DNA of 64,000 bases from Arthrobacter sp. C2 (GTDB lineage Bacteria; Actinomycetota; Actinomycetes; Actinomycetales; Micrococcaceae), in NCBI GenBank assembly GCA_024207135.1, contig CP042428.1, positions 4,464,001 through 4,528,000 of the forward strand, in the 5' to 3' direction. The translations under genes were made by a program, and so were the position numbers. Shown here one piece after another: positions 4,470-21,320 of the stretch. Under the pieces are notes generated by a model. It did no database searches. It was given only the letters and a program-made list of their open reading frames with translations, and had not been told where the DNA came from. Each line of letters opens with the position of its first letter. The first letter of the stretch is position 1.

Positions 4470-7400
4470 CTATGGCCGGCTTTCCAGAAGGTCGGCGTTT
4501 CGTTGTGCTCCTTCGATGGCAGCGACGATATTACGGCCGCGGGAGGAGAAACCGAGTTCTTTCATTGTTGCCAGAAGCTCATCTTCTGCACTGCGGATTT
4601 TTCCGTCGCTTCGGATATGCATCACGAGGTCTAGCAACACGCCGGACGGATAGGTTCGTATCGGATTTCCGGGTGTGAAATGTGGTTTTGGCTTGGTCCT
4701 CGACTGCTCAATGACCCTCCAGGTTTTCTCAGCAACGTTCGATGGGTCTGGGGTGCTTATCGAAACCTTTATGTCAGGTTGTGTATGGGCAAGGGCTGCC
4801 GTTACCGCCTCTTGGACCTTTCGAACCTCGGCTTCGGCATTATTGAACCAGTCGGTACTCCAGATGCGATGGAAAGTCCAACCTCGCCGTTCCAGGAGAT
4901 CCTGTCGCAGGCGGTCTCGTTCACGGGCAACGTGCCCCGAATGGTACGAAGCGCCATCTGCCTCGATAGCCAGAATGTGCCGACCGAGAAAATCAGGGTG
5001 GCGAACTGCAAAATCAATCCGATAGGCTCCCACGCCTACTTGGGCATCAAGCTGGAGGCCTGCCTCCGTGAGCCGATCCCGGACATCAATTTCGAAGGGA
5101 TTCAGCGGCATGGTGTTATCCGGTCCGCCATGGAGTTCCTTGCCTCCGGAAGAGACAAAGCGCAGGAAGCGGTACATGAGTTTGAAACCTGCAGAAGCAT
5201 GTGCGTCCTCGGCGATGTCGTCCAGGGTAAAGCTGGATACGAGAGTCATGCGGCGCCTGGCACGGCTGATTGCCACATTGAGCCGGCGTTCTCCTCCTTC
5301 CTTAAGGAGCGGACCCCACAAGTACCGCATTTTTCCATCTATGCCTTTGCCGTATCCCACGGTGAGAATAATGGCGTCCCTTTCATCGCCCTGGACCCTT
5401 TCAATGCTCTTGACAAAGAAACTCTCATCGTAGCCAGAGAGGGCTGCTTCAAATTCAGGATCCTGAACCCGGGCACGATCGAGGGCCATCTCGATGCGGT
5501 TTTGGTGTTTGATACCGAACGCGATCACGCCCAGTGATTCCGTGGGACGCTCTCGAACGTGCTCCTTGACCAACTGAACGACTTTTTCAACTTCCGCAAC
5601 AGGACTGTTGGTCGTTTGGCCAATGCCCTCACTGGGCTCGACGGCAACGTGCCGGAGGGCATCAAGTGCGTCCGCAGCCGGAAAGGTCGTGAGCGAACCG
5701 CTATAGACGTGCGCGTTGGAAACCGCGATCAGCCTTTCGTCCCGGGAACGATAGTGCCACAGAAGACTCCTCGACTGGCCCACCAAGAGCCGCTCCATGG
5801 CGAAAAGGATGCTCTCGGCGTCCTTCGTAAGGGAACCCGTTGGCCTGCTGGGCTTGAGCGCCGGTTCTTCAACGGCATTCAGAGCGCCGTCTTCCTCCGG
5901 GCCTGATTCATCTGGGCCGTTTCCATTTGGTAGTTCCGGCAGGTCTTCAAGAACCTTGCTGAAGAACTCGGTGGGGGGAAGCTGCCGACTGTCACCGGCA
6001 ACGATGGCCTGGTTGGCGCGCAGCAGAGCAGGGATCGCGTCGGAGGGCTTGATCTGGCTGGCCTCGTCGAAAATCACGACATCAAAACACTGCTCAGCGG
6101 GCAGGAGCCTCGAAACCTGCAGCGGGCTCATCGCCCATACGGGCTTGGCTGCACGGATGACGGTGGGTGCCTCGCTAAAGAACGTTCGGACGGAACGAAA
6201 GTTCCTTTTTTTCGTCAGTTCCGTCTTGAGTGTGGCGTGTTCCTCTGGGTGATGATCCAGGGCAGTCTTTAGGCGCTCCGCGACGAGGCGCCGAATGCGG
6301 GCAGAATTTGCAGCCATGTGGTCCATGTCGGAGCGAATGAATTTTCTTCTCGCTGACTCCAGCTCGCGGCCAGAGACACCAGCGAGCCCGGGGTCGGTCA
6401 TTTCCGCATCTTCGAGAATCGACGAGTACACGACCCAGCGCAGGACCTCAGAGGGCCGGCCCCCCAGGTGTCCGTGTTGCGCCATGTCGGCACGGATGCT
6501 CCCGACAACAGTCGCCAGCCCCGCCTGTGAAAGCCGGGCTTCGAGATCGAACGCGCGGGGGAAATTCATGCGCGCCGGGTGATTTGCAAGTGACTGCAGG
6601 AACGGTGCCAGGTCAGCGAGGAGCATCTCATCGAAATCGATGTGCTGAAGTGCTGCCTGAAGCCGGGCGAGCCTGCCCCGGAGCGACTTTGCAGCGTCCA
6701 CAAAAAGGAGATGGTCAGGTGTTGCTTGAGCTACGCCGTGGCCGTTCCACGTGTCTCGAATGTGGACTGCCCGAATAATCCATTGGTGAATCGCTGCACG
6801 GTCGAGGGCTGGGTTCAACGCTGCAGCTTTTTTGTTGAACTGGCGTCGTTCCTTCCAACTAAATCGTTGCGCGGACGCCTTCTTGAACGCCCTGTCAGTG
6901 GCACACAGCAGACCGTGAAGTTCGTCGCTGGTGCGTTCCAAGGAAAGTGCTTCCGGAACGGCATTCTGGACAGCAGCCAGCTCTTCGATCCGTGAAACCA
7001 GGGCATCGATTTCGGGCCATTTGGAAGGGGACGGAACCCCCATGTCCGCACAGGTTTTCGCCAGCGACGCGAGAAGCGAGGGAACTTCGGTTGCGGACAT
7101 GTCCCGAGCAACATCGGTTCCGTTGCTAACAGCCTCGCGGGTGTTCACGGCCTGGGGATTCCAGCCCGGTGACAGGTGCCACTGCGGTTCAAGGGCACCG
7201 AGCTCCAACAGATTATCGAGAGCCGCTTCAAATTCGGTCAGGCTTGATGCTGTCCATGTGGTGAACGTTGTCGCTGGCAGTCGGATCTGGCTCCTGGCAG
7301 CGGGCGGGATGCCGGGAAGTTGCGAACGCAACCATGAAACAGAAACGCCCCACCCTCGGGTGGGCTTGGAAAGTGCGTCATTGTGGCTCACAAGACGGTC

Positions 7401-8621
7401 GCGAGACTGCGTCATAGTGAATTCCAAGGCGGCCACGTCGGGTACACCCGTGTTCTGTTGCAACTCCAGAACATTTCGGAGCTCATCTGCGACAAAGCGT
7501 CGGGACGAGGAAGCTGCAAATAGATCGAGCACCAAATGCTCGAGGTGCGCGCCCTTGAGCCTGTCCAAGACAGCGGTAATGGCCGCCCGCTTCTGGGCTA
7601 CGAAGAGCACTTTCTTGTCTGCGGCCACCAACGATGCAATGGTGTTGGCGATTGTTTGGCTTTTCCCTGTTCCAGGGGGGCCCTGAACTACCAGGCTGCT
7701 GCCGCCAACCGCAGCGTTGATCACATAGCTCTGGCTGGAGTCGGCATCGAGAATAAGAAATTCGGCATCAACCGGGGAGTAATCAGGTCCCGACTCGCGA
7801 AGATCCAGCTTTTGGCCCCTGATACGGGAAGCTGCAGCAGGATCTCCGGCCAGGGCTGAAACGAGATCGGACGATGCGAGAGCCTCAAGGTTGTCGATGT
7901 CAGCGACCATGGGCTGCTTCAGGTAGGTAAATGCGCCCAGATAGTGATGGGACTCGATTCTGAAATCAGCAACATCCCTGCACGCGGCTTCTATCGCCTT
8001 AAGCATTTCATTCGCACTCTGTGGGGATCCGTTGTCGAGGTCAAGGATTGATTCTTCGTCCAGGCGAAAGCGGTCCGCATTCATGACGTGTACGAGCACG
8101 CTATTCAGTGAGAAGTCTTCATCAAGACGCAGTTCCCACGAGTCTTGGGCACCTCTCTTGCGTGAAAGTTCCAGCGCGCGCAGAAGCACCGGGGCGGAGG
8201 GAAGCGTGTAGTTTCGCTTCTTTGCGTTTCCCTCTCCCGGATTTGCTGCTTGGTCGGCTTCTGCAGCAATGATGGCTTCGCTTGCCGTCGGATCCCATGT
8301 GGCGGTCCCCACGGCCATGAATGCCACGGGAACCCCGAATTCTTCCTGGGCTTCGCGCTGCTTTCGGGCAAGCGCAGTGCAGGCCCGTTGCGCCTTTCGC
8401 AGAGATTCGGCATTCACAAAGAGCTCATTGAGCCGAACCGTTTTGCCGGAATAGAGCTTGGCGGATGCCGATTCAGGCATTGCGTCGAACTGTATCGTCG
8501 ACGCATTCGGACGGAAATAAAGAAGTCGGTTGTTTCCACCAACGTCAATCAGGGACGTGCGCCACTCGTTGGACGCTGTAGTAATGGCCCTGGAAACAGA
8601 CTCCTGCATACTCATATCCAA
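4470..8621 (-). CDS. DUF4011-type SF1 helicase with C-terminal Vsr/MTES_1575-like nuclease domain
   Basis: A 1383-aa cytoplasmic protein. Residues about 15-50 carry the DUF4011 signature (W...LIDVGGNNRLLYFR). A superfamily-1 helicase follows: Walker A GPPGTGKS near residue 313, DEASQ (motif II) near 848, motif III GDSRQLPP, then RVQGDERD and NVAISRARRRM. The last ~200 residues resemble the REase_MTES_1575/DUF559 fold: a basic-aromatic region with YRIDFAV, then AIEADGASYHS and RRGWTFHRIWSTDWF. This COG1112-like helicase plus nuclease architecture is known from phage-defence contexts, so a role in degrading foreign nucleic acid is inferred. TTG 8621, ATG 8615 and ATG 8609 are all possible starts, with weak ribosome sites. 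It appears monocistronic, between non-coding stretches. Confidence 0.85.
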   Translation of the reverse strand: MDMSMQESVSRAITTASNEWRTSLIDVGGNNRLLYFRPNASTIQFDAMPESASAKLYSGKTVRLNELFVNAESLRKAQRACTALARKQREAQEEFGVPVAFMAVGTATWDPTASEAIIAAEADQAANPGEGNAKKRNYTLPSAPVLLRALELSRKRGAQDSWELRLDEDFSLNSVLVHVMNADRFRLDEESILDLDNGSPQSANEMLKAIEAACRDVADFRIESHHYLGAFTYLKQPMVADIDNLEALASSDLVSALAGDPAAASRIRGQKLDLRESGPDYSPVDAEFLILDADSSQSYVINAAVGGSSLVVQGPPGTGKSQTIANTIASLVAADKKVLFVAQKRAAITAVLDRLKGAHLEHLVLDLFAASSSRRFVADELRNVLELQQNTGVPDVAALEFTMTQSRDRLVSHNDALSKPTRGWGVSVSWLRSQLPGIPPAARSQIRLPATTFTTWTASSLTEFEAALDNLLELGALEPQWHLSPGWNPQAVNTREAVSNGTDVARDMSATEVPSLLASLAKTCADMGVPSPSKWPEIDALVSRIEELAAVQNAVPEALSLERTSDELHGLLCATDRAFKKASAQRFSWKERRQFNKKAAALNPALDRAAIHQWIIRAVHIRDTWNGHGVAQATPDHLLFVDAAKSLRGRLARLQAALQHIDFDEMLLADLAPFLQSLANHPARMNFPRAFDLEARLSQAGLATVVGSIRADMAQHGHLGGRPSEVLRWVVYSSILEDAEMTDPGLAGVSGRELESARRKFIRSDMDHMAANSARIRRLVAERLKTALDHHPEEHATLKTELTKKRNFRSVRTFFSEAPTVIRAAKPVWAMSPLQVSRLLPAEQCFDVVIFDEASQIKPSDAIPALLRANQAIVAGDSRQLPPTEFFSKVLEDLPELPNGNGPDESGPEEDGALNAVEEPALKPSRPTGSLTKDAESILFAMERLLVGQSRSLLWHYRSRDERLIAVSNAHVYSGSLTTFPAADALDALRHVAVEPSEGIGQTTNSPVAEVEKVVQLVKEHVRERPTESLGVIAFGIKHQNRIEMALDRARVQDPEFEAALSGYDESFFVKSIERVQGDERDAIILTVGYGKGIDGKMRYLWGPLLKEGGERRLNVAISRARRRMTLVSSFTLDDIAEDAHASAGFKLMYRFLRFVSSGGKELHGGPDNTMPLNPFEIDVRDRLTEAGLQLDAQVGVGAYRIDFAVRHPDFLGRHILAIEADGASYHSGHVARERDRLRQDLLERRGWTFHRIWSTDWFNNAEAEVRKVQEAVTAALAHTQPDIKVSISTPDPSNVAEKTWRVIEQSRTKPKPHFTPGNPIRTYPSGVLLDLVMHIRSDGKIRSAEDELLATMKELGFSSRGRNIVAAIEGAQRNADLLESRP

Positions 8622-9173: not shown

Positions 9174-11369
9174 CTAAGGGGATTCCAGCGACCCTGCCCC
9201 GAGGGAACTCTGCGCACGTGTCACCGCCACGTATGCCAGTCGTCTTTCGTCGGCCGCGGCTTTGTCGCCCCCACGTTTCATTGCCATCTCCACAGACCCC
9301 TCAAAATCCTGGGAGATTTGCACCGACTCCCAATCGAGGCCCTTGGCCTTGTGTGCGGTGGAAATCACCGGGATGCCTGGGGACACGGGGACGGTCTTGG
9401 CGATGGCTTCGGCGAGGAACCTTGTTCCGTGGCCTTCAACCAGGGAAACCCACGTGGTCAAATCGCTTCGTCCCCGGAGGGTGAATTCACGGACCTCGGT
9501 CCAGGTGGAGAAGTTCCGCAAAAATTGGTGGGTTGCCGATTGTCCGGCCTTCAGGTGTTCTGCGCTCTTGATGAAACCGAGAACATGGGCCGTATCCATT
9601 TGAAGTGCTACCTGGTTACCGCGCTTCTGCATCTCCAGGAGCTCGTAGAGGGCACCCTCGTTGGTACGGGTCAGGAGTGCCGCCGGGTGTGACGCACTCT
9701 TGAGCGTTGAGATGCGGCCAGGGTTTCCCTGCAGGAAGTGCTTGGCGCCCAATGTGGTGAGCCACTTGTTGGCTATTTCGGCTATCTCGGGTCCGAAGCG
9801 CCAGGACGTTGTGAGGGGCAGCTCGTGCCGGGTCTTGATGGAGGGCAGTGCGTCGGCTCCACCCGCAAATCCATAGATCGCTTGGTTGGAGTCACCGACA
9901 AAGACCTTCTTGAGGTGGGTCTGGCGCTTGAGGAAGCCCGTCACCGCGGGGCTGAGATCCTGGGCCTCGTCGACGAAAAGCATCCCCCCGGGGCTGCCGA
10001 TCTTGGGCCTGGAGAGAAGCCAGAGCTTGAGGTAGTGGTCATGGGTAATGGGGACGTGGCGGTTGCGTGGATCGATCGCTTGGTCCCAGTATTCCTGGGC
10101 AAAGAGGAGCACCAGCTGACCGGCGTCCTTGCGCAGTGAAACCGGCATGCGTTCGAGGCTTTTGGTGGCGTGCTTGCGCAGAATTTGGGTGCTGTCGCTT
10201 TGGCAGAAGTAGGCCACGGTTTCCATGGCCATCCGGGCAAGTTCCTGGGGGCCGCATGCTGCGGACAGGTCCGCGCCGCCCAACCCCTGGATCAGTTTTC
10301 GGTCCGTGGTCCCGAGGCGCTGGGCGATCAGCCGGGGAGGTTCAAAACCCAGGTTGAGCCGATCAAGCAGGGGAGACTGGGCCTGGGCCTTGAGGGTTTG
10401 GAAGGCCAGTGAATGGATGGTTGAGGCGGCCACGTGCTGCCCGAATTTTCCCTGTGCGTCTCGGGCGATGGCCTGGTTGTAGGCCAGGTAGGTGATGGGG
10501 GCCGTGGTGGATTGGGCGAGATATTGGAGCGTGGAGGTCTTTCCGGTTCCTGCGCCGGCCAGGACCTTGATGTCGCCCTCGCTGTGGAAGGCATCGTAGA
10601 TCGCCAACTGTTCGCGGCTCGGACTCCACGACGGCCCTCCGTCGAGGCCCTTTGGTTGCGGATACTTGGACTTGTGGCGGTGCTTGGGGACCGGCTTGGT
10701 GCCCGGACCCGCCTGGGAGGCCAGCTTGGTGCCCGGACTCGGCTGGGGGGCCGGCTTGGTGCCCGGGCCCGGCTGGGGGCTCTTGCCTTGGGGTTCTTCG
10801 GCGGATCGAACGAGTTTGACCGCCACCTGGGCACAGGTCTCGGCATCGGCCAGGGCACGGTGGGCGGTCTCTTGTTTGACGCCAAAATAGGCGGCGAGGG
10901 TGGCGAGCTTGTGGTTGGGTGCATCCTTGACCAAGCGGGCCGCCGCGCGATACGTGCAGATACCCCTAAACGGGGCAGGGGAGAGGCCCGCTGCCATGAA
11001 TTCTTCGGTGAGGAAACGATTTTCAAAGGACAGGTTGTGGGCCACCACGACTCGGTTGCCGATGAAGGCGATGAGTTCGGACAGGACGCCGGCGATGGGT
11101 GGCGCTCTTCTGACTTCTGCCTCGGTGATGCCGTGGATGTGTGCACCCCAGTGGACGTATCCGGATCCGGGGAACACGATCTTAGACAGTTTTTGGCTGA
11201 TACGTCCGGAGCCATTGAATCGTACGGCGCCGATCTCGATGATGCGTGCGGATTTGGGCGACAATCCCGTGGTCTCGATGTCCAGGGAGACGAATTCGGT
11301 CTTGCCCCTGAGCTCGGAGGCGACCTCTTCCAGTGCGAGTACTTCACAGAACATGGATCCCCAATTCAA
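9174..11369 (-). CDS. DnaQ-type 3'-5' exonuclease fused to UvrD-type helicase
   Basis: A 731-aa fusion. Residues ~20-190 form a DEDDh exonuclease: DIETTGL (ExoI), HNLSFENRF (ExoII), HRALADAETCAQ (ExoIII). A proline-rich linker with three 10-residue PGTK units follows. From ~240 comes a UvrD/FBH1-like SF1 helicase: Walker A LAGAGTGKTS near 266, DEAQDLSP near 464, GDSNQAIYGFAGG, TTSWRFG, and C-terminal STAHKAKGLDWE and LAYVAVTRAQ. The pairing suggests coupled unwinding and 3'-end resection, in repair or in attack on invading DNA. Start is TTG 11369 or ATG 11354. It shares strand and neighbourhood with the 1383-aa helicase-nuclease but is separated by ~550 bases, so it is probably an independent unit. 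Confidence 0.9.
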   Translation of the reverse strand: MNWGSMFCEVLALEEVASELRGKTEFVSLDIETTGLSPKSARIIEIGAVRFNGSGRISQKLSKIVFPGSGYVHWGAHIHGITEAEVRRAPPIAGVLSELIAFIGNRVVVAHNLSFENRFLTEEFMAAGLSPAPFRGICTYRAAARLVKDAPNHKLATLAAYFGVKQETAHRALADAETCAQVAVKLVRSAEEPQGKSPQPGPGTKPAPQPSPGTKLASQAGPGTKPVPKHRHKSKYPQPKGLDGGPSWSPSREQLAIYDAFHSEGDIKVLAGAGTGKTSTLQYLAQSTTAPITYLAYNQAIARDAQGKFGQHVAASTIHSLAFQTLKAQAQSPLLDRLNLGFEPPRLIAQRLGTTDRKLIQGLGGADLSAACGPQELARMAMETVAYFCQSDSTQILRKHATKSLERMPVSLRKDAGQLVLLFAQEYWDQAIDPRNRHVPITHDHYLKLWLLSRPKIGSPGGMLFVDEAQDLSPAVTGFLKRQTHLKKVFVGDSNQAIYGFAGGADALPSIKTRHELPLTTSWRFGPEIAEIANKWLTTLGAKHFLQGNPGRISTLKSASHPAALLTRTNEGALYELLEMQKRGNQVALQMDTAHVLGFIKSAEHLKAGQSATHQFLRNFSTWTEVREFTLRGRSDLTTWVSLVEGHGTRFLAEAIAKTVPVSPGIPVISTAHKAKGLDWESVQISQDFEGSVEMAMKRGGDKAAADERRLAYVAVTRAQSSLGAGSLESP
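10695..10784. repeat. Three 30-bp tandem repeats coding the exonuclease-helicase linker
   Basis: The core CTTGGTGCCCGG recurs at 10695, 10725 and 10755, an exact 30-bp period. Each unit encodes ten residues containing PGTK. The repeats keep frame, so copy-number changes would only alter linker length between the two enzymatic domains. Confidence 0.85.
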
Positions 11370-11445: not shown

Positions 11446-11703
11446 TTACCTGCCATCATTACCGTCTGCCTCATTAGAGCGGCTATTCCGTTCGTCTTGC
11501 CTCATATAGAACGCCTGCTCTTCTTCCTGACGCTTCTTAGCTGCCTTGCTATCGGCCTTAGTCATATAAACCACTACGATCACAATAGCTATGACTATGA
11601 AGACACTAAGGGTGCCAATATCTACCCCACCCGATGCCGCAACTTCTGCCTCTGGACCTTCACGGAAAGCCAAGCTCAAATTACTGGCCCAATGAGTCAA
11701 CAT
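11446..11703 (-). CDS. Small single-pass membrane protein
   Basis: An 85-aa protein with a ~30-residue N-terminal region, one strongly hydrophobic helix (TLSVFIVIAIVIVVVYM, about residues 31-48) and a charged, probably cytoplasmic tail rich in Lys, Glu and Arg. The ATG at 11703 has GGAG five bases upstream, which supports expression. It lies upstream of, and on the same strand as, the exonuclease-helicase gene, 76 bases away, so the two may be co-transcribed. It is divergent from the PD-(D/E)XK-like gene at 11794. No family recognised. Confidence 0.6.
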   Translation of the reverse strand: MLTHWASNLSLAFREGPEAEVAASGGVDIGTLSVFIVIAIVIVVVYMTKADSKAAKKRQEEEQAFYMRQDERNSRSNEADGNDGR

Positions 11704-11793
11704 ACGATCTCCAATCCAGAAACATGTTTCATCCTGCTGTCACGCTACCGGCAATCCATCAGGGTTGAACCATCCCCCGGTTATGGTCTGAAT

Positions 11794-12681
11794 ATGTACA
11801 ACACAACAGGGCGCCTCAGCAAGGACGTCAAATACCCCAAAACCTCTCTTGGCCAGTACCTGCGCAGCACCTTTCCCCATGTGAAGCCACTGCAGGCTGA
11901 ATACAAGGCCCGTGCCGGCGACCTCGCCATCGACTCGATGGGAGCAAACGCAAGCAACGTCGGCACGGCTCTCGATCTGATCATCCGGCTGATCATCGAG
12001 CCTGACGAGACGCCGATGTCGGCCCTCATCCTCTTTCCGTTGAATACGAATTACCACGAGGTTGTCAACGAGTTGGCGACAATCGTTGGTCGGTCGGCCG
12101 ACAGTGATCTCGCCGCCCGGGCCGCCTGGGGCCTCGCGCTCTGCGTCAGTGCATACCGGGCCGGTGCGGCATGGGCCCCGCTCGTCCCTGATCTGGTGCA
12201 TGGCGGCGAATTCACCGTGGACATGATGCTTGAACAAGCCGATGATGCAGCCGTCGCGGAATTGGTTGCATTGAAGGAGCTCACAGAGGAACGCCTCATG
12301 GCGAAACTCAGCGGTCCGTTTAGCCTCGGCCCCACCTTTGATCTCTCCAAACCCGGCCCGAACCAACGTATCGCCGCGGAAGGTGACCTTGTAGCAGGAG
12401 GATTGCTGCTCGACATCAAAACCATCCTCGCTCCCAAGAACAAGGCAGGGCTCCGCCCCGATGTACTGAAACCGGATAACGTCTATCAGCTTCTGGGCTA
12501 CGCACTGCTGGATTACACCAACCAGTACAACATCGACCGGTTGGGCATCTACTCGGCTCGCTACGGCACGCTGACCGAGTGGCCTCTCGAACACGTCACT
12601 TCGCTGCTGTCCGGCCGAGAGTTCGATTTCCCCGCGGCGCGCCAAGACGTGTGGGACATGATGCAGCAGGACCGCGTCTAG
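11794..12681 (+). CDS. Hypothetical protein with PD-(D/E)XK-like nuclease signature
   Basis: A 295-aa protein beginning MYNTTGRLSKDVKYPKTSLG; the same frame is open further upstream, but codon use is poor there and the region holds the divergent small gene. The C-terminal half contains D198 (GDLV), then D207-I-K209 (LLLDIKT), followed by a YQLLGYALLD helix and RLGIYSARYG strand. This spacing and order match the PD-(D/E)XK fold seen in many orphan actinobacterial proteins. The N-terminal half is helical with no motif I can name. The nuclease function is inferred from the motif alone; location among helicases and restriction genes is consistent with defence. Confidence 0.7.
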   Translation: MYNTTGRLSKDVKYPKTSLGQYLRSTFPHVKPLQAEYKARAGDLAIDSMGANASNVGTALDLIIRLIIEPDETPMSALILFPLNTNYHEVVNELATIVGRSADSDLAARAAWGLALCVSAYRAGAAWAPLVPDLVHGGEFTVDMMLEQADDAAVAELVALKELTEERLMAKLSGPFSLGPTFDLSKPGPNQRIAAEGDLVAGGLLLDIKTILAPKNKAGLRPDVLKPDNVYQLLGYALLDYTNQYNIDRLGIYSARYGTLTEWPLEHVTSLLSGREFDFPAARQDVWDMMQQDRV

Positions 12682-14025: not shown

Positions 14026-14056
14026 CGGTCAAACCCGGCTTAACCGGGTCTGACCG
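14026..14056. promoter_or_regulatory. Inverted repeat, candidate operator of the restriction-like operon
   Basis: CGGTCAAACCCGG (14026-14038) and CCGGGTCTGACCG (14044-14056) are inverted complements with one mismatch and a 5-nt centre. The repeat ends just before the TACAAT hexamer at 14058-14063. A protein bound here would cover the -35 region, so it is a plausible site for autoregulation by the HTH protein encoded at 14111. Confidence 0.5.
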
Positions 14057-14110: not shown

Positions 14111-14308
14111 GTGACCGCGTCTTGGTTATCAGCCGACGACATAGCTGCCCACCTCGGCGTGGCAAAAGACACTGTCTACACGTGGATCGCGGAAAAGAGC
14201 ATGCCCGCCCACAAGATTGGCCGCCTGTGGAAGTTCCAGGTCAGCGAGGTCGACGACTGGGTGCGCGGCGGCGGGGCGGCAATGCCGGAACGTGAAACAC
14301 GAGAATGA
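14111..14308 (+). CDS. Excisionase-family helix-turn-helix DNA-binding protein
   Basis: A 65-aa protein made almost wholly of one winged HTH: WLSADDIAAHLGVAKDTVYTWI is the helix-turn-helix and KIGRLWKFQVSEVDDWVR is the wing and last helix typical of the MerR-like excisionase (HTH_17) group. The GTG start follows GGGAGG. It is the first gene of the operon and sits 55 bases before the methyltransferase gene. Small HTH proteins of this type commonly control restriction or mobile-element genes, so it is likely the operon regulator; the inverted repeat at 14026 is a candidate target. Confidence 0.8.
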   Translation: MTASWLSADDIAAHLGVAKDTVYTWIAEKSMPAHKIGRLWKFQVSEVDDWVRGGGAAMPERETRE

Positions 14309-14363
14309 GTCGATCAATGTCCGTGGCCACTGCTGTGATGAGGAACGTTGTAGAAGGAGTGGC

Positions 14364-17066
14364 ATGGTAAAGCTCAACCTCAAGGCGATCGAGGAGCGCG
14401 TCGCCCCGCTGGGCAGGCGCGAGTCATACGACCGCGAGTTCATCTTCGAGCTGTTGCTCGCCTACGGCCGCTCCCAAGGCAACGTCACCCGACTTCGCAA
14501 CGGCTCACTCAACGTCGCCAACGACAAGTCGTGCGAAGTTGCTCAAAAGAACGTCATCTACTTCCACGAAACGACAGGCGACCCGCTTGCCGTGATCGAG
14601 GAGTTGCGGACCTCGCCGACCGTGGTGCGCTACAACACCCGCTTCGTCATCGTCACCGACTACACCGAATTGCTCGCCGTCGACACGAAGACCGGCGAGA
14701 ACCTCATGATCCCGATCCGGGAGATCGACAAGCACGTTACGTTCTTCTTGCCCTGGGCGGGCATGGAGAAAGCTCAGTACGTTGGTGAAGCCCACGCCGA
14801 CGTCAAGGCTGCCGAGCGAATGGGCAAGCTCTTCGACGAGCTGCTGACTGCGAACCCGCATCTGCTTGATGCGTCGCCCGGGCGCCATGGACTCAACATT
14901 TTCTTCACCCGGTTGCTGTTCTGTTTCTTTGCCGAAGACACCGGGATCTTCACCGAGAGCCAGTTCACCAACGCCGTCGGCTCCCACACCCAGGCCGACG
15001 GCTCCGACGTCGCTGATTTCCTCACCGCGCTCTTCACCGCTCTCGACACTGAGCATGCGAGTGACAAGCCTGCTTACCTGTCGGGTTTCCCGTTCGTCAA
15101 CGGACGACTCTTCACCATGGACCCCGACCACGTGGTCCCGGTGTTCACCAAGAAAGCTCGAGACCTGCTGATTGAGTCAGGCACGCTGATCTGGCGAGAG
15201 ATCAACCCCGACATTTTCGGTTCGATGTTCCAAGCGATCGTCACCCCTGGAAAGCGCTCGGACCTAGGGCAGCACTATACCTCGGTGCCGAACATCCTCA
15301 AGACGATCGAGCCACTCTTTCTCGACTCGCTCAAGGAAGAGTTTGACGCTGCCTACAACGCGCCGAAAAAGCTCGAAGCGCTCCTGGCACGCATCAGTAA
15401 AATCAAGATCTTCGATCCCGCTTGTGGCTCGGGGAACTTCCTCATCATTGCCTATAAGGAATTGCGACGCTTGGAACACGCGATTCTGCAACAACTCACC
15501 AACATTGATGCCAAGCACCAGGTGCTCTACGCCGAGTCGAAGATCAACATTGAGAATTTCTATGGGATCGAGATCGACGACTTCGCTGTTGAGGTAGCGA
15601 TCCTCTCGCTCTGGATCGCCAAGCACCAGATGAACTCTGAGTTCAAAGAAAAGTTCAATCTCGCCATCCCGTTGATTCCGCTGAAAGAGACTGGGCGGAT
15701 CCAGCAGGGCAACGCCACTCGCGTCGACTGGCTGCAAGTTTGCCCGAATGACGGGTCCGAGGAGATCTACCTCATCGGGAACCCACCTTACAAGGGCGGA
15801 AAATCTCAGAACAAGGAAATGAAGAGTGATTACCCGTTCGTTTTTGGGAAGCGTCCATACTCCAAGGATCTCGACTACATTGCACTCTGGTTCATAAAGG
15901 GAGCCGACTACATCAAGGGTACAAAGGCCGAGCTGGCGTTCGTCACGACAAATTCGGTTTCTCAAGGCGAGCATGTTGGCCTGATGTTCCCGATGATCTT
16001 CGAGATGGGCCTCGAAATCGGGTACGCCTACACTTCGTTCAAATGGCAGAACAACGCTAAACGAAACGCAGGGGTGACTGTCGTTGTCATCAACCTGCGT
16101 GTAACCCGTCCTAGCGCTAAGTACATTTTCACCGGAGGCCTCCAGATTAAGGCGGAGAACATCAACGGCTATCTCGCTGATGCACCCTCGGTATTCATTT
16201 ACCGCCGAACACGCGCTCTAAGTGCATCGATGCCTCGTATGGTTCTGGGCTCAATGCCAAAGGACGGCGGGCATCTTATACTCGACCCGCACGAACGCAA
16301 AGACCTTCTGGCGAATGTCCCCAACGCGGAGAAGTTCGTAAAGCGCTACGTTGGCTCCGCGGAGTTCATCAACGACATCGAGCGCTACTGTCTGTGGATC
16401 ACCGACCGTGAGCTGGGTGAGGCGAAAGCAATTTCCTTGATCGCTAAACGTCTCGAATCTGTTTCGCTATGGCGGCGCGAGAGTGTGGCGGCGACGACCG
16501 GTGACTATGCGGCATTCCCGAATCGGTTCAAGCAGAACTCATTCAGGCCAACAGAATCGGTTATCGTGCCACGCGTCTCTTCCGAACGCCGTGATTATGT
16601 TCCTATCGGGTTTCTCGATGCTGAGACGATCATTTCTGATCTGGCCAATGCCGTGTACGACGCTGAGCCCTGGCTCTTCGCCCTATTGACGTCGAAGATG
16701 CACATGGCGTGGCTTGCAGCTGTCGGCGGACGGATGAAGACTGACTACCGGTACGGCGCCTACATCGTCTACAACACTTTCCCGGTGCCGCCACTTTCCG
16801 ACTCCTTTAAGGAGAGACTCACAGTTGCGGCGCTTCGAGTACTAGACGTGCGTGAGTACCACTGCGAAAAGACACTCGCTGAGCTCTATGACCCAGACCT
16901 CATGCCCGCAGATCTTCGAACCGCGCACGCTGATGTGGATTCGATTGTGGACTCAATCTATTCCAAGCGCGGATATGAATTGGATGAGCAAAGATTGTCG
17001 GACCTCTTCGGTATGTATGAGGCGATGACACAAGCGGAAGCATCGAAGGGGAGCAAGAAGAAGTGA
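14364..17066 (+). CDS. MmeI-like adenine-specific DNA methyltransferase, apparently lacking nuclease motif
   Basis: A 900-aa protein; the ATG at 14364 follows GAAGGAG. The middle and C-terminal parts follow the MmeI/type IIG order: a helical spacer (FFTRLLFCFFAEDTGIF), SAM-binding motif I FDPACGSGNFLI (from residue 350), catalytic motif IV NPPY (473-476), then a target-recognition region. It would methylate adenine N6 in a specific DNA sequence. In MmeI the N-terminus is a PD-(D/E)XK nuclease. Here the equivalent stretch (residues ~35-95) passes from NVTRLRNGSLN to VIYFHETTGDPLAVIEELR without a recognisable D...ExK triad, so cleavage is probably done by partner proteins. The stop overlaps the helicase start (GTGA). 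Confidence 0.85.
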   Translation: MVKLNLKAIEERVAPLGRRESYDREFIFELLLAYGRSQGNVTRLRNGSLNVANDKSCEVAQKNVIYFHETTGDPLAVIEELRTSPTVVRYNTRFVIVTDYTELLAVDTKTGENLMIPIREIDKHVTFFLPWAGMEKAQYVGEAHADVKAAERMGKLFDELLTANPHLLDASPGRHGLNIFFTRLLFCFFAEDTGIFTESQFTNAVGSHTQADGSDVADFLTALFTALDTEHASDKPAYLSGFPFVNGRLFTMDPDHVVPVFTKKARDLLIESGTLIWREINPDIFGSMFQAIVTPGKRSDLGQHYTSVPNILKTIEPLFLDSLKEEFDAAYNAPKKLEALLARISKIKIFDPACGSGNFLIIAYKELRRLEHAILQQLTNIDAKHQVLYAESKINIENFYGIEIDDFAVEVAILSLWIAKHQMNSEFKEKFNLAIPLIPLKETGRIQQGNATRVDWLQVCPNDGSEEIYLIGNPPYKGGKSQNKEMKSDYPFVFGKRPYSKDLDYIALWFIKGADYIKGTKAELAFVTTNSVSQGEHVGLMFPMIFEMGLEIGYAYTSFKWQNNAKRNAGVTVVVINLRVTRPSAKYIFTGGLQIKAENINGYLADAPSVFIYRRTRALSASMPRMVLGSMPKDGGHLILDPHERKDLLANVPNAEKFVKRYVGSAEFINDIERYCLWITDRELGEAKAISLIAKRLESVSLWRRESVAATTGDYAAFPNRFKQNSFRPTESVIVPRVSSERRDYVPIGFLDAETIISDLANAVYDAEPWLFALLTSKMHMAWLAAVGGRMKTDYRYGAYIVYNTFPVPPLSDSFKERLTVAALRVLDVREYHCEKTLAELYDPDLMPADLRTAHADVDSIVDSIYSKRGYELDEQRLSDLFGMYEAMTQAEASKGSKKK

Positions 17067-19033
17067 ACAAGCCACTCAATGTTGTTGATGTGACGTACGC
17101 CCAGACGGGCGCGTCGGTGAACACGGATGCGATGGGGATGCGCGAAATGCAGCAGCGCGTCTTCGTCAAGCGAGATGCCCAGCACCTGTTGGTCAAGGCG
17201 CCGCCCGCTTCAGGTAAATCCCGTGCGCTCATGTTTGTTGCCTTGGACAAGCTCTACAACCAGGGCCGCAAGAAGGTCATCGTCGCGGTACCGGAACGAT
17301 CGATCGGCGCCTCATTCTCCTCGACGAACCTTACTGCCCATGGATTCTTCGCTGATTGGGAGATCAAGCCGGAGCACAACCTCTGCACACCAGGCTCCTC
17401 TCTGGGCAAGGTCGCCGCGTTCATGAAGTTCCTTGAGGGTCCGGACGCGACGCTGGTCTGTACGCACGCCACGTTGCGGTTCGCGTTCGAGAAACTCGCG
17501 CCCGAAGTTTTCAACGGAACCGTGCTCGCGATCGACGAGTTCCACCATGTCTCTGCCGACACCGAAGCCAACCGGCTCGGGGCGCTGCTGCGTGACGTCA
17601 TGAACGGCTCCGACGTGCACATCGTCGCGATGACCGGTTCCTACTTCCGTGGCGACTCTGTTCCTGTGCTTTCCACGGATGACGAGGCGAAGTTCACTCC
17701 GGTCACATTCAACTATTATGACCAGCTCAATGGGTATGAGCACCTCAAGTCGCTTGGCATCGGTCACCACTTCTACCAGGGGCGGTATACCGACGCGATC
17801 GGCGAAGTTCTTGATCTCGATAAGAAGACCATTCTCCACATCCCGAACGTGAACTCGGGTGAATCCACGAAGGACAAGATCGAAGAGGTCGGGTTCATCA
17901 TCGACTCGATCGGCGAGGTCATCGACACCGAAGATACTGGGATCATCCGGATCCAACGCCGCGACACCGGTGAGATCCTCCGGGTCGCGGACCTGGTCGA
18001 CGACGCGGACCAAAGGAAGCGCGCCGAAACCCAGCACTATCTCTCCACTGTTGCTTCCAAAGACCGCGACGGAGTCGACATCATCATCGCGCTGGGAATG
18101 GCGAAGGAAGGATTCGACTGGCCGTTCGCCGAGCACGCCCTCACCGTCGGCTACCGAGCCTCACTAACCGAAGTCATCCAGATCATCGGCCGCGTCACCC
18201 GCGACAGCCCGGACAAGGCGCATGCCCAGTTCACTAACCTCATCGCCCAGCCCGACGCGGCCACCGACGAAGTCAAATACTCGGTGAACAACATCCTCAA
18301 GGCGATCACCGCTTCACTGCTGATGGAGCAGGTGCTGGCACCGAATTTCACGTTCAAGACCAAGACCGGCAACGACGACGCCCCGAAGCCCGGCGAGCTG
18401 CGGATCAAGGGTTTCAAGGAGCCCTCCACCGCGCGGGTCAAGCAGATCGTCGAGACCGACCTGAACGATCTCAAGGCCACGATCCTGCAGGACGACACCT
18501 TCGCCAAGGCCGCCGCAGGCAGCCTAGACCCCGAGGTGACCAACAAGGTACTGATCCCGAAGATCATCCGCGAGCGATACCCCGACCTCAACGACGCCCA
18601 GGTCGAAGAGGTACGCCAGCAGGTCGTCGTGGACTCCGTCATCAAGAACGGTGAAGTCCGTGAGGTCGGCGACAAACGATTCATCAAGATGGCCGAAAAG
18701 TTCGTCAACATCGACGACATCGACATCAATCTTATCGACTCCGTTAACCCTTTCCAGCGTGCGTTCGAGGTCATGAGCAAGTCGGTCACGCCGAGCGTGC
18801 TGCGGATCATCTCCGACACGATCACCGCCACCCGCATAGAGATAAACGAGGAGGAAGCCCGGGTGCTGTGGCCCAAGATCCAGATCTGGCACAAGGTCAA
18901 TGGTCGCAAGCCCGACGTACGCAGCGACGATCCGATCGAGAAACGGTATGCCGAAGCGCTGCTGTTCCTGCAGAGGAAGAAGCAACAGCTCCTCGCGGCC
19001 CAGCGAGCAACACAGATGGTTGACCAGTCATGA
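17063..19033 (+). CDS. SF2 DEAD/DEAH-type helicase of the restriction-like operon
   Basis: A 656-aa ATPase. Walker A is APPASGKS (46-53), motif II is DEFH (157-160), motif III SAT is replaced by MTGSY, and motif VI QIIGRVTRD starts near residue 373. The C-terminal 250 residues are helical and of unknown fold. Such SF2 motors translocate along double-stranded DNA in type I and type III restriction systems, which makes it the likely engine of this operon. GTG start overlaps the methyltransferase stop by four bases, and its own stop overlaps the next ATG (ATGA), which implies fixed stoichiometry and co-translation. Confidence 0.85.
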   Translation: MNKPLNVVDVTYAQTGASVNTDAMGMREMQQRVFVKRDAQHLLVKAPPASGKSRALMFVALDKLYNQGRKKVIVAVPERSIGASFSSTNLTAHGFFADWEIKPEHNLCTPGSSLGKVAAFMKFLEGPDATLVCTHATLRFAFEKLAPEVFNGTVLAIDEFHHVSADTEANRLGALLRDVMNGSDVHIVAMTGSYFRGDSVPVLSTDDEAKFTPVTFNYYDQLNGYEHLKSLGIGHHFYQGRYTDAIGEVLDLDKKTILHIPNVNSGESTKDKIEEVGFIIDSIGEVIDTEDTGIIRIQRRDTGEILRVADLVDDADQRKRAETQHYLSTVASKDRDGVDIIIALGMAKEGFDWPFAEHALTVGYRASLTEVIQIIGRVTRDSPDKAHAQFTNLIAQPDAATDEVKYSVNNILKAITASLLMEQVLAPNFTFKTKTGNDDAPKPGELRIKGFKEPSTARVKQIVETDLNDLKATILQDDTFAKAAAGSLDPEVTNKVLIPKIIRERYPDLNDAQVEEVRQQVVVDSVIKNGEVREVGDKRFIKMAEKFVNIDDIDINLIDSVNPFQRAFEVMSKSVTPSVLRIISDTITATRIEINEEEARVLWPKIQIWHKVNGRKPDVRSDDPIEKRYAEALLFLQRKKQQLLAAQRATQMVDQS

Positions 19034-20232
19034 GCACCCCCGAGATAGAAAATCCCAACAACGGAGCCCCTGCACCAGGGGAGGACATGCAGTGGATCAT
19101 CGATTCCGACGTCGACGGGCTGCTGGATCTTCCCGAGAAACCGAAGAAAGTGACCTCCAACGACCGGCTGGAGCGTGCCTTCCTTGAGATCGTAGAATTC
19201 CGCCGTATGCACGACAGAATCCCCAGTTCGACGACCCGTGAAATTGCCGAGCGCAAACTCGGGGCCCGACTTGACGGGATCCTCGCCGACGAGCAGAAGA
19301 GCGGCGCCCTAAAGCATTTGGATGAGTCTGGCCTCCTGGAGATTCCCGATACCCCAACTTCGATCGACGACCTGCTCGACAGCGATGACTTTGACCTGCT
19401 TGGCGATGATTCAGGGTTGCTGGACATCTCCGATCTGCCGGCCCGCGCGCGCCGCGTTGCACCGGAAGAAGTGGCCACGAGAGTTCGGTCCGAAGACTTT
19501 GCGCAGTATAAGCACCTCTTTGTGCAGAAGCATGCGGAGCTAAAGGCTGGCACGTCGAAGCTCATGAGATTTGCCGAGGCTGGTGGACAGCAGGCAATCC
19601 GGGAAGGGAGATTTTTCGTTCTTTCCGGAGTCATGCTTTTCGTGGCGGAAATTACGGATCCTCAGCCGGCTCTAGGTGTGCGGACCCGGTACAAGCCACG
19701 CACCCGGACGGTCTTTGAGAACGGCACAGAGTCGGGACTCTTTCGACGTTCCCTGGCCGGACAGTTACTGGAGCAGGATGGCTATGCCGTCGTGGACGCG
19801 GGTCCCGCCGAGATTTTCCCCGATGATGAGGCCACCGGGTACGTCTACGTCTTGCGTTCGTTCAGTGAAGATCCCTTAATCTCGAACAGGGAGAACCTGT
19901 ACAAGATTGGCTTCACTCGCGGTTCCGTGGAAAAGCGGATCGCGAATGCCGAGAAAGAGGCAACCTATTTGATGGCCCCGGTCCAGATCGTTGCCACTTA
20001 TAGAACCTACAACCTCAAGGTATCTGCTCTTGAGGACCTCCTGCATCGCGTCTTCGCAAAAGTGCGGCTGGATATCAACCAGGTTGACGGAAAAGGGCAA
20101 CGGTATGACCCTGCGGAATGGTTTGTCGCACCGTTGAAGGTCATTGACCAAGCAATCAACATGATCATCTCCGGCGACATCGTTGACTACAGTTACGACG
20201 ATGCGACCCACCAATTCGTGGAGCGTGGCTGA
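19030..20232 (+). CDS. GIY-YIG nuclease-like protein (T5orf172/MUG113 type)
   Basis: A 400-aa protein. The C-terminal third has the T5orf172 variant of the GIY-YIG fold: GYVYVLRS at 270-277, LYKIGFT near 290, EKRIANAEKEA, and YRTYN...ALEDLLHRVF, ending with the EWF segment typical of the family. The N-terminal 200 residues hold an acidic region (DLLDSDDFDLLGDDSG) and helices that resemble helicase-associated segments. GIY-YIG enzymes make single-strand or double-strand breaks in DNA, so this is the probable cutting subunit. It is coupled to the helicase (ATGA overlap) and to the next nuclease (TGATG). Confidence 0.8.
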   Translation: MSTPEIENPNNGAPAPGEDMQWIIDSDVDGLLDLPEKPKKVTSNDRLERAFLEIVEFRRMHDRIPSSTTREIAERKLGARLDGILADEQKSGALKHLDESGLLEIPDTPTSIDDLLDSDDFDLLGDDSGLLDISDLPARARRVAPEEVATRVRSEDFAQYKHLFVQKHAELKAGTSKLMRFAEAGGQQAIREGRFFVLSGVMLFVAEITDPQPALGVRTRYKPRTRTVFENGTESGLFRRSLAGQLLEQDGYAVVDAGPAEIFPDDEATGYVYVLRSFSEDPLISNRENLYKIGFTRGSVEKRIANAEKEATYLMAPVQIVATYRTYNLKVSALEDLLHRVFAKVRLDINQVDGKGQRYDPAEWFVAPLKVIDQAINMIISGDIVDYSYDDATHQFVERG

Positions 20233-21320
20233 TGGGCGTTGAAATGGGGTTGTGGCGTGCCGACGGCGAAAAGCTCACTCGGATCACACCGACGGCGATC
20301 GGTCTGGAAGCTCATCTGGAGTCTTACATCGAATCCGATCCGGCGATGCTGGGCGAACCCCTTCTTATTGTCGGGCGACAGGTTCCGACGGCACATGGCG
20401 GTTTCATAGATCTCTTGGCGATCGACGAAAACGCGGCAGTCCATGTAATCGAGCTCAAGCGTGACAAGACGCCCCGCGATGTCACCGCACAAACTCTTGA
20501 CTATGGTTCCTGGGTAGCAGCTCTGGGCCGCGCCGAGGTCATCAGTATCTTCGCCACTTATCGGCCGGGCATCGCGCTGGAGGAAGCCTTTGTCGAACAG
20601 TTCGGAGGTACGCTGCCGGAAGAAGTTAATGCAGCCCAGTTTTTCAAGATCGTTGCAGCATCCGTCGATGCCGCGACCGAGCGCATCGTCCGGTTCCTCA
20701 ACGAGGACTTCGGTATCCCCATCAACGTGGTCTTCTTCCGACACTTCCACGACAATGGATCTGCATACCTTGCCCGAACGTGGCTCGTCGAGCACGATGC
20801 ACAATCCATTACCCCGACCGGGGCAATACGTAAGACGAAGTCGCGCGAGCCATGGAACGGCCAAGACTGGTACGTCTCGTTCGGAGACTCTCCTGACGGC
20901 AGACAGTGGACCGACGGCATGAAATATGGCTTTATCTCCGGCGGCGGTGACAAGTGGTTCTCTCGGACGCTGAAAAACCTCACCCCTGGATCGCGCGTCT
21001 TTGCCTGCATCCCCAAGGTTGGTTATGTCGGCGTCGGCACTGTGCTTGGCTCAGCGAAGCGGTTTGACGAAACCACAGTCCTGCATGACGGCAGCGAGGC
21101 TGCATTGATAGCGCTTCCTTTGACAGGGACATACCGCCACGACGGCGATCGAGACGACGACGTCGCGGAATGGGCTGTGCCGGTTGAATGGACGCACGCC
21201 GTCCCCCGTGAGCAGGGATTCTGGAAGCCCGGTATGTTCGCCAACCAGAACACGGCTACGAAGCTGCGCAACCAGTTCACTATCGACCAGGTCTCCGAGG
21301 CATTCAGACTCGACGATTAA
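20232..21320 (+). CDS. PD-(D/E)XK nuclease with C-terminal PUA/EVE-like domain
   Basis: A 362-aa protein. The N-terminal domain resembles the NucS/DUF91-type endonuclease core: D60 in FIDLLAID, then E74-L-K76 in VHVIELKRDKT, followed by a QTLDYGSWV helix. The C-terminal region (about 210-330), with WYVSFGDS, FISGGGDKWFSRTLKNL and RVFACIPKVGYVGVGTVLG, looks like a PUA/EVE-superfamily fold that reads modified bases in known restriction enzymes. Its start codon overlaps the GIY-YIG stop by one base. In this operon it could cut DNA with foreign modifications, or check the host methyl mark; both are inferences. Confidence 0.75.
   Translation: MGVEMGLWRADGEKLTRITPTAIGLEAHLESYIESDPAMLGEPLLIVGRQVPTAHGGFIDLLAIDENAAVHVIELKRDKTPRDVTAQTLDYGSWVAALGRAEVISIFATYRPGIALEEAFVEQFGGTLPEEVNAAQFFKIVAASVDAATERIVRFLNEDFGIPINVVFFRHFHDNGSAYLARTWLVEHDAQSITPTGAIRKTKSREPWNGQDWYVSFGDSPDGRQWTDGMKYGFISGGGDKWFSRTLKNLTPGSRVFACIPKVGYVGVGTVLGSAKRFDETTVLHDGSEAALIALPLTGTYRHDGDRDDDVAEWAVPVEWTHAVPREQGFWKPGMFANQNTATKLRNQFTIDQVSEAFRLDD

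Follow-up and report, generated by a model that had tools for sequence, protein, structure and literature searches.

The genes described here lie in Arthrobacter sp. C2 (assembly GCA_024207135.1), within a stretch of 64,000 nucleotides, the window, which spans positions 4,464,001 to 4,528,000 of the forward strand of contig CP042428.1; the genome is 4.56 Mb long and consists of this one contig. Genes for an MmeI-family methyltransferase, a superfamily 2 (SF2) helicase, a GIY-YIG protein and a NucS-like protein stand in a row behind a small helix-turn-helix (HTH) gene, and an earlier note, made from the letters alone, had proposed them as an undescribed restriction system. The features are as follows, with a target recognition domain abbreviated as TRD.

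14026-14056, no strand assigned: inverted repeat with 13-nt arms (92% complementary) and a 5-nt spacer, found by repeat search; candidate operator 5' of the HTH gene
14111-14308, + strand: HTH gene, GTG start, 65 aa, excisionase-type and MAD1-like; possible regulator
14364-17066, + strand: DnmA/YeeA-like MmeI-family N6-adenine methyltransferase (protein 1, P0001), 900 aa, with a TRD, nuclease triad lost
17063-19033, + strand: YeeB-like SF2 helicase (protein 2, P0002), GTG start, 656 aa; putative translocase
19030-20232, + strand: YeeC-like GIY-YIG (T5orf172) protein (protein 3, P0003), 400 aa
20232-21320, + strand: NucS_C-like PD-(D/E)XK protein (protein 4, P0004), 362 aa, PADLOC candidate PDC-S11; accessory gene

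All four operon genes are open and overlap, by GTGA between methyltransferase and helicase, by ATGA between helicase and GIY-YIG gene, and by TGATG between GIY-YIG and nuclease gene; the HTH gene stops 55 bases short of the methyltransferase start, without overlap. The coordinates and couplings given in the earlier note are confirmed by the open reading frames, and the motifs it quoted are exact: FDPACGSGNF at residue 350 and NPPY at 473 of protein 1, APPASGKS at 46, DEFH at 158 and QIIGRVTRD at 373 of protein 2, and D60 and E74-L-K76 of protein 4.

Protein 1 is matched by the Pfam families MmeI_N, MmeI_hel, MmeI_Mtase (332.6 bits), MmeI_TRD (260.6 bits) and MmeI_C, by the MmeI structure 5hr4 (574.5 bits) and, over residues 6-891, by the PADLOC model REase_MTase_IIG (948.7 bits). 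Cutting by MmeI is reported to require D70, E80 and K82 (PMC4833311). N-terminal parts were aligned for 98 methyltransferases of the cluster, taken from 131 loci with a P0001 match after exclusion of open-start frames and matches of 500 bits or less, and for nine MmeI-type proteins from class genomes (16 loci minus the triad members L177-L179, L183 and L186 without a match, and L184 and L185 with 54 and 49 bits). The D-ExK triad was found in 9/9 MmeI-type proteins versus 0/98 cluster methyltransferases. The first triad position is glutamate in 64 and aspartate in 6 of the 98, the second is lysine in 60 and glutamate in one, and the third is never lysine; the window's protein has E, H and a gap. 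In the 60 proteins where lysine replaces the MmeI glutamate, another alignment register could retain this lysine, but not the acidic residue preceding it. A loose pattern, in which an acidic residue is followed by D, E or Q two positions ahead of K, occurs within residues 41-95 of 25/98 proteins at varying positions, and is taken for an accident of sequence. Protein 1 is thus shown by its sequence to be an MmeI-family methyltransferase with its own TRD and without D-ExK. No intact nuclease triad lies in its N-terminus, as the earlier note had supposed; the idea of a split type IIG enzyme drawn there, with the nuclease lost from the methyltransferase and supplied by partners, is consistent with the missing triad and with the conserved GIY-YIG residues described below, and is already in print.

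In protein 2 the motifs APPASGKS, DEFH and TGSYF are invariant in all ten aligned helicase rows, the window's among them, and in QIIGRVTRD the residues I375 and V378 vary. Pfam places the protein with DEAD (30.6 bits), with Helicase_C and ResIII below cut-off, and finds no nuclease domain in it; PADLOC returned only partial matches, the best to PbeA (31.8 bits). Protein 3 consists of a helical N-terminal part, an alpha/beta middle part and a C-terminal GIY-YIG part, the last being matched by MUG113 (54.9 bits) and T5orf172 (48.8 bits); the PADLOC match was weak (21.7 bits). The assignments of the earlier note to an SF2 helicase and a T5orf172-type GIY-YIG protein agree with these Pfam matches. 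G270, Y273, K292, G294, R303, E335, H339, E363 and W364 of the GIY-YIG part, which we take from the known GIY-YIG motifs to be the catalytic set, are invariant in 128/128 rows, six four-gene loci included (127 of 130 loci with a match plus the window, incomplete frames and matches of 100 bits or less being excluded). In one genome (G670, on the minus strand of locus L213, in a frame still open where the locus stops) the helicase is fused in frame at about residue 510 to the GIY-YIG protein. This fusion suggests physical contact between the two proteins; the last helicase part is missing from it, and a deletion or an assembly error is also possible.

The distribution of the cassette was followed by scanning a genome collection with the helicase alignment, which gave at least 588 matching stretches and at least 557 relatives, of which the best 80 loci were retained, a choice biased to near relatives. 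To these were added 44 viral-contig loci and 10 plasmid loci chosen from 263 plasmid records. The rows are not independent, some viral loci being near-copies (e.g. L157 and L166), and B. subtilis is absent from the alignments. Matches to methyltransferase, helicase and GIY-YIG protein occur together in 69/80 genome, 10/10 plasmid and 30/44 viral-contig loci, with a partial or split methyltransferase match in the plasmid loci L009, L015 and L017. The 19 loci lacking a methyltransferase match all have less than 2.5 kb of upstream sequence, and three of the seven loci lacking the GIY-YIG gene end within 400 bases. The methyltransferase follows the helicase in a single locus (L090) out of 115 with both. 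Seventeen of the 80 genome loci are actinobacterial; the others include Bacteroidetes, Planctomycetes, Sulfurimonas, Sulfurovum, Chlamydiae, Saccharibacteria and one archaeal bin. Helicase relatives stand on the 263 plasmid records, 148 of them with 80% or more of the query covered; in smaller samples they were found in seven of 394 genomes of the class (E<=0.001; three full-length) and in 11 of 396 genomes of the order (E<=1e-50). Gene order and alignment thus show that an SF2 motor and then a GIY-YIG protein, the latter with conserved residues, trail the methyltransferase in constant order across distant phyla, and the set, for which the earlier note had proposed a comparison across Actinobacteria, is found far beyond them. 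A phage gene set was considered and rejected, the phage collection yielding merely two short helicase fragments, though 44 loci came from viral contigs.

The space between the methyltransferase match and the helicase match exceeds 450 bases in 37 of the 115 loci with both (e.g. L072, L081, L104 and L157). A family scan covered ten of the inserted or downstream genes; the inserts include Schlafen AlbA_2, RhuM, Fic, DUF1016/YhcG PD-(D/E)XK, PDDEXK_4 and CoiA members. Directly 3' of the GIY-YIG gene stand a DUF5655 protein with HSDR_N and NucS_C matches below cut-off (L105:13129-14034) and an EVE-domain protein (L098:8546-8947), and directly downstream in L076 a PDDEXK_1 protein. Similar inserts occur in Type I restriction-modification (R-M) operons. 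Since further nucleases are found among these genes, the recruitment of nucleases next to the cassette may have occurred more than once.

Three of the four families correspond to a published cluster. B. subtilis DnmA (YeeA) is described as an MmeI homologue that lacks the nuclease motif, its gene being followed by yeeB, for a helicase, and yeeC, for a T5orf172 protein (PMC7261158, PMC9973331); DnmA methylates GACGAG (PMC7261158). The same two papers credit Morgan et al. 2009 with spotting the arrangement and proposing a Type I-like R-M system, and say that Makarova et al. 2011 counted homologues of YeeB and YeeC among the putative antiphage genes. PMC9973331, which cites a preprint for it, also states that Vibrio crassostreae became more sensitive to some phages on deletion of its dnmA and yeeB homologues. 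The window shares with dnmA-yeeB-yeeC a nuclease-less MmeI-like N6-adenine methyltransferase, an SF2 helicase and a T5orf172/GIY-YIG protein, in the same order and on the same strand, and differs by the added NucS-like gene and the HTH gene; in B. subtilis, YeeB and YeeC are also stated to miss C-terminal stretches (PMC9973331). The claim of an undescribed system thus does not hold for the published families (PMC7261158, PMC9973331), and an existing definition covers three of the four families in the earlier note but not the fourth. Among the titles and abstract openings listed by targeted searches of open-licence PubMed Central papers, none dealt with a form of four genes that has NucS-like or PDC-S11 proteins as partners, and the extracts of PMC12813430 and PMC10855318 name PDC-S11 merely in lists of co-occurring or prevalent systems. 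The probable reading of the locus is accordingly that of an actinobacterial dnmA-yeeB-yeeC module with a clade-specific accessory nuclease gene, in which the core is known, if barely characterised, and the fourth gene is an added variant.

The product of the fourth gene matches the full-length PADLOC model PDC-S11 over residues 1-360 (477 bits), and NucS_C of Pfam just below its cut-off (23.0 against 24 bits). It aligns with the archaeal NucS structure 2vld in such a way that D60, E74 and K76, in the motifs I59-D60 and I73-E74-L75-K76, fall on D, E and K of NucS, which are presumably the catalytic residues there; all three are invariant in 23/23 protein 4 rows. Of the PD-(D/E)XK nuclease with a PUA/EVE-like end proposed in the earlier note, the D60 and E74-L-K76 motif is confirmed. 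The EVE end is neither confirmed nor disproved: no EVE family was among the Pfam families matching the 23 members at E<=1, hhalign gave no match to one EVE protein, and the structure model (mean predicted local distance difference test score, pLDDT, of 44) was too poor for a fold search. A NucS-like PD-(D/E)XK gene is shown by sequence to be joined to the operon in some actinobacteria. Relatives of 67-75% identity stand directly 3' of the GIY-YIG gene in 6/80 genome loci, all actinobacterial (6/17), and in none of the 10 plasmid or 44 viral loci; a scan of the viral contigs with P0004 also gave no relatives. Besides the window, the loci with this arrangement are L054, L055, L056, L058, L061, L062 and G577. 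The junction is an 11-base overlap in L058 and L061, and the fourth gene starts 1 base after the GIY-YIG gene in L054 and 3 bases after it in L055. In a survey of what lies downstream at the 118 loci with sufficient sequence, 54 had a close following open reading frame of at least 100 aa, and only the fourth-gene family was seen more than three times. A replacement of the GIY-YIG protein by the NucS-like protein was rejected, the GIY-YIG residues of the four-gene loci being intact.

Two trees bear on the history of this gene. In the helicase tree (27 rows; 10 of 24 inner branches well supported) the seven four-gene rows are scattered, with five changes needed, at least three of them forced by well-supported branches; no bootstrap tree out of 200 joins these rows, and 60 of 500 label shuffles do equally well, so the four-gene label is hardly clustered. 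In the fourth-gene tree, from which L062 was excluded because its gene matches in two pieces, six coupled copies form one clade (100/100) versus 18 others. Addition of five rows, with the uncoupled order copies L200-L202 included and G650, G416 and the G717 fragment left out, retained this clade (100/100, now with G577). An uncoupled copy from G411, which is 71-72% identical and whose neighbours, judged by eye, resemble housekeeping genes, fell inside it beside L058 and L061 (100/98). By these trees, the subfamily is joined to the cassette in most cases, though not in all, and was probably gained, lost or swapped more than once. The four genes as the unit of the system, as the earlier note had it, are not sustained, the fourth gene being present in a minority of the actinobacterial loci and once away from the cassette (G411).

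A mechanism can be proposed for the module. Protein 1 would methylate one adenine of an asymmetric site and act as specificity subunit, and on unmodified foreign DNA it would load or license the helicase, which would move DNA in an ATP-dependent manner and so allow a comparison of paired sites of the kind proposed for Type ISP and MmeI enzymes. The GIY-YIG protein would cut complexes that stall or collide. A second cut, or processing of the break, would fall to the NucS-like protein, which may also act alone; the HTH protein possibly times expression of the operon. From its family, and because among the nuclease candidates it is the one that the cassette has in common, the GIY-YIG protein is most likely the cutter, and the NucS-like protein is best seen as an accessory. 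The comparison of sites has a background in MmeI-type enzymes, which modify only one strand, so that unmodified sites are left in replicated host DNA. The review PMC3874165 argues for a probable comparison of head-to-head site pairs by such enzymes, and states that Type ISP enzymes translocate DNA and require two sites of this arrangement. By analogy, a helicase attached to an MmeI-type methyltransferase could likewise allow site pairs to be compared.

Among known systems, MmeI itself (type IIL/IIG) has all five domains including the TRD in common with protein 1, but holds its nuclease triad in the same chain, whereas in the window the triad is lost, the candidate nucleases are in other proteins and a motor is added. 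The Type ISP enzymes LlaGI and LlaBIII combine a nuclease, a translocase, a gamma-type adenine methyltransferase and a TRD at asymmetric sites (PMC3874165). On paper this functional set is alike; however, Type ISP is a single polypeptide with an Mrr-like nuclease, and the window has separate genes with GIY-YIG and NucS-like proteins. Type I R-M systems have a separate HsdS and a nuclease-helicase fusion in HsdR, in contrast to a TRD fused to the methyltransferase and a helicase in which Pfam finds no nuclease domain. Protein 4 differs from NucS (EndoMS) in having no match to the N-terminal part of NucS and in its own C-terminal part, and its clade is mostly joined to an R-M-like operon. BREX and DISARM were rejected, since PglZ, BrxC, DrmA and DrmB are missing from the PADLOC tables of 11 window proteins (two of which list the best 25 of 46 and the best 25 of 36); protein 1 resembles PglX and DrmMI of these systems in the methyltransferase domain only. 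The full mad set of MADS was not seen in the window scans either, where only the MAD1-like HTH protein and weak matches appeared: the methyltransferase reached 19.2 bits in NCBIfam (cut-off 720) and 45.8 bits with PADLOC mad2, and a neighbour 23.7 bits with mad8.

Several other explanations have to be weighed. An ordinary type IIG/IIL enzyme of MmeI type with unrelated neighbours would account for the REase_MTase_IIG score and the five MmeI domains, but the residues corresponding to D70, E80 and K82 of MmeI (PMC4833311) are missing from protein 1 and from 98/98 of its cluster relatives and the partner genes are conserved across loci, and we give this explanation next to no weight. It is also improbable, though far less so, that the cassette is a decayed restriction system in which only protein 1 is functional, as an orphan or regulatory methyltransferase of the kind proposed for DnmA of B. 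subtilis. Deletion of yeeB or yeeC in B. subtilis left growth and the plaquing of three phages unchanged, deletion of dnmA left transformation unchanged, and the authors call the cluster an R-M relic (PMC9973331, PMC7261158). Remnants do exist: among nine helicase loci compared, that of G735 (L211) has a helicase cut off at about residue 604, running in frame into permease-like sequence (identified by eye), with no methyltransferase or GIY-YIG match in its 4.8 kb. On the other hand, the window's four genes are all open and overlapping, carriage on plasmids is wide (263 records), and the GIY-YIG residues (128/128), the NucS-like D, E and K (23/23) and the helicase P-loop and DEFH (10/10 rows) are kept, which does not look like general decay. 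The B. subtilis phenotypes and the G735 remnant nevertheless weigh against a working restriction module, as do the following points. Seven of the 19 loci without a methyltransferase match have 1.1-2.4 kb of upstream sequence in which none was found, so that an insertion or a methyltransferase of another kind could lie there, and four viral loci without a GIY-YIG match (L137, L169, L170 and L171) have space for the gene. The structure model of protein 3, built on an alignment of 54 of 69 frames (mean pLDDT 86.7, predicted template modelling score 0.46), gave no Foldseek match in the PDB at E<=0.001, the top matches being to eIF-5A (E 0.005, query TM-score 0.11) and not meaningful. Translocation by the helicase and cutting by the GIY-YIG protein are read from family membership, and what backs a role of the fourth protein in the module is gene order and a clade of which one copy, that of G411, is uncoupled.

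This copy also bears on the strongest competitor, according to which the fourth gene encodes a defence or repair nuclease (PDC-S11) that works independently as a single gene and just travels beside the cassette. The gene is absent from most of the triads; 18 places besides the window in the class sample (388 genomes) cover more than 90% of P0004 at 41-54% identity, and none of their genomes is among the three with a full-length helicase (394 genomes, with shared handles). Of nine fourth-gene genomes searched in the order, G577 and G717 have the helicase, while G411, G081, G416, G582, G650, G696 and G748 do not. Against this stand the seven loci in which the gene directly follows the GIY-YIG gene, with overlaps or spacings of a few bases in four of them, and its co-occurrence with the helicase: 10/396 genomes of the order have a protein 4 relative (E<=1e-20), 11/396 have the helicase, and three have both, the window's and G577 as a four-gene row and G717 with genes that are not adjacent and a match to a distant fragment (hypergeometric p = 0.0017). 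Without the window's genome p is only 0.019, so the case for the fourth gene rests more on adjacency than on co-occurrence. At 2/11 helicase loci of the order the gene is joined to the cassette. We consider a travelling companion rather unlikely, its standing having risen slightly because the G411 copy sits in the coupled clade. The same copy lowers a little the chance of a two-nuclease, motor-driven complex like a split Type ISP enzyme, in which a nuclease-dead MmeI-type protein would direct the helicase, the GIY-YIG and NucS-like proteins would cut differently (e.g. at the collision point and on a branched or broken product), and the NucS-like gene would pass as a module between operons. This we would entertain only as a doubtful proposition. 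The dnmA-yeeB-yeeC module with an accessory nuclease gene is preferred to all of these.

Around the operon, the HTH protein matches HTH_17 of Pfam (53.1 bits) and antiphage_MADS1 below its cut-off (73.7 against 80 bits). In the 143 loci searched, a relative of 85% identity was found just 5' of the methyltransferase in L054 alone, and two weaker matches (L096 and L205) sit elsewhere in their own loci. The repeat search reported no comparable inverted repeat 5' of the L054 HTH gene, and a scan for promoters and terminators was uninformative (2 and 3 found, 2.6 and 7.4 in shuffled sequence). Upstream lies another defence-like gene (4470-8621, - strand) for a helicase-like protein of 1383 aa with DUF4011, AAA_11, AAA_12 and MTES_1575 and with a nuclease domain, scored by PADLOC as PDC-S37 (803 bits) and Hhe (378 bits). 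The gene at 9174-11369 (- strand) encodes a fusion of an exonuclease of RNase_T type (DEDDh) with a UvrD-type helicase, which has a partial PADLOC match to PDC-S48 (145 bits). A 394-aa open reading frame (11497-12681, + strand), whose listed TTG start may lie too far upstream, has a weak match of 18.7 bits to RTasPDDEXK, a model of PD-(D/E)XK type, and had no relatives in the 143 loci.

The three-gene core is widespread and mobile, with at least 557 of at least 588 pattern-matched stretches encoding the helicase family and with relatives on 263 plasmid records, while the PADLOC version used labels protein 1 an ordinary type IIG enzyme and reaches the helicase and the GIY-YIG protein only through weak or partial model matches. 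The conservation of active-site-like residues argues against taking the cluster for a relic in general, and for tests the intact copies of actinobacteria and plasmids may be better suited than that of B. subtilis. The fourth gene offers a natural comparison between operons that are otherwise alike but differ in the added nuclease.

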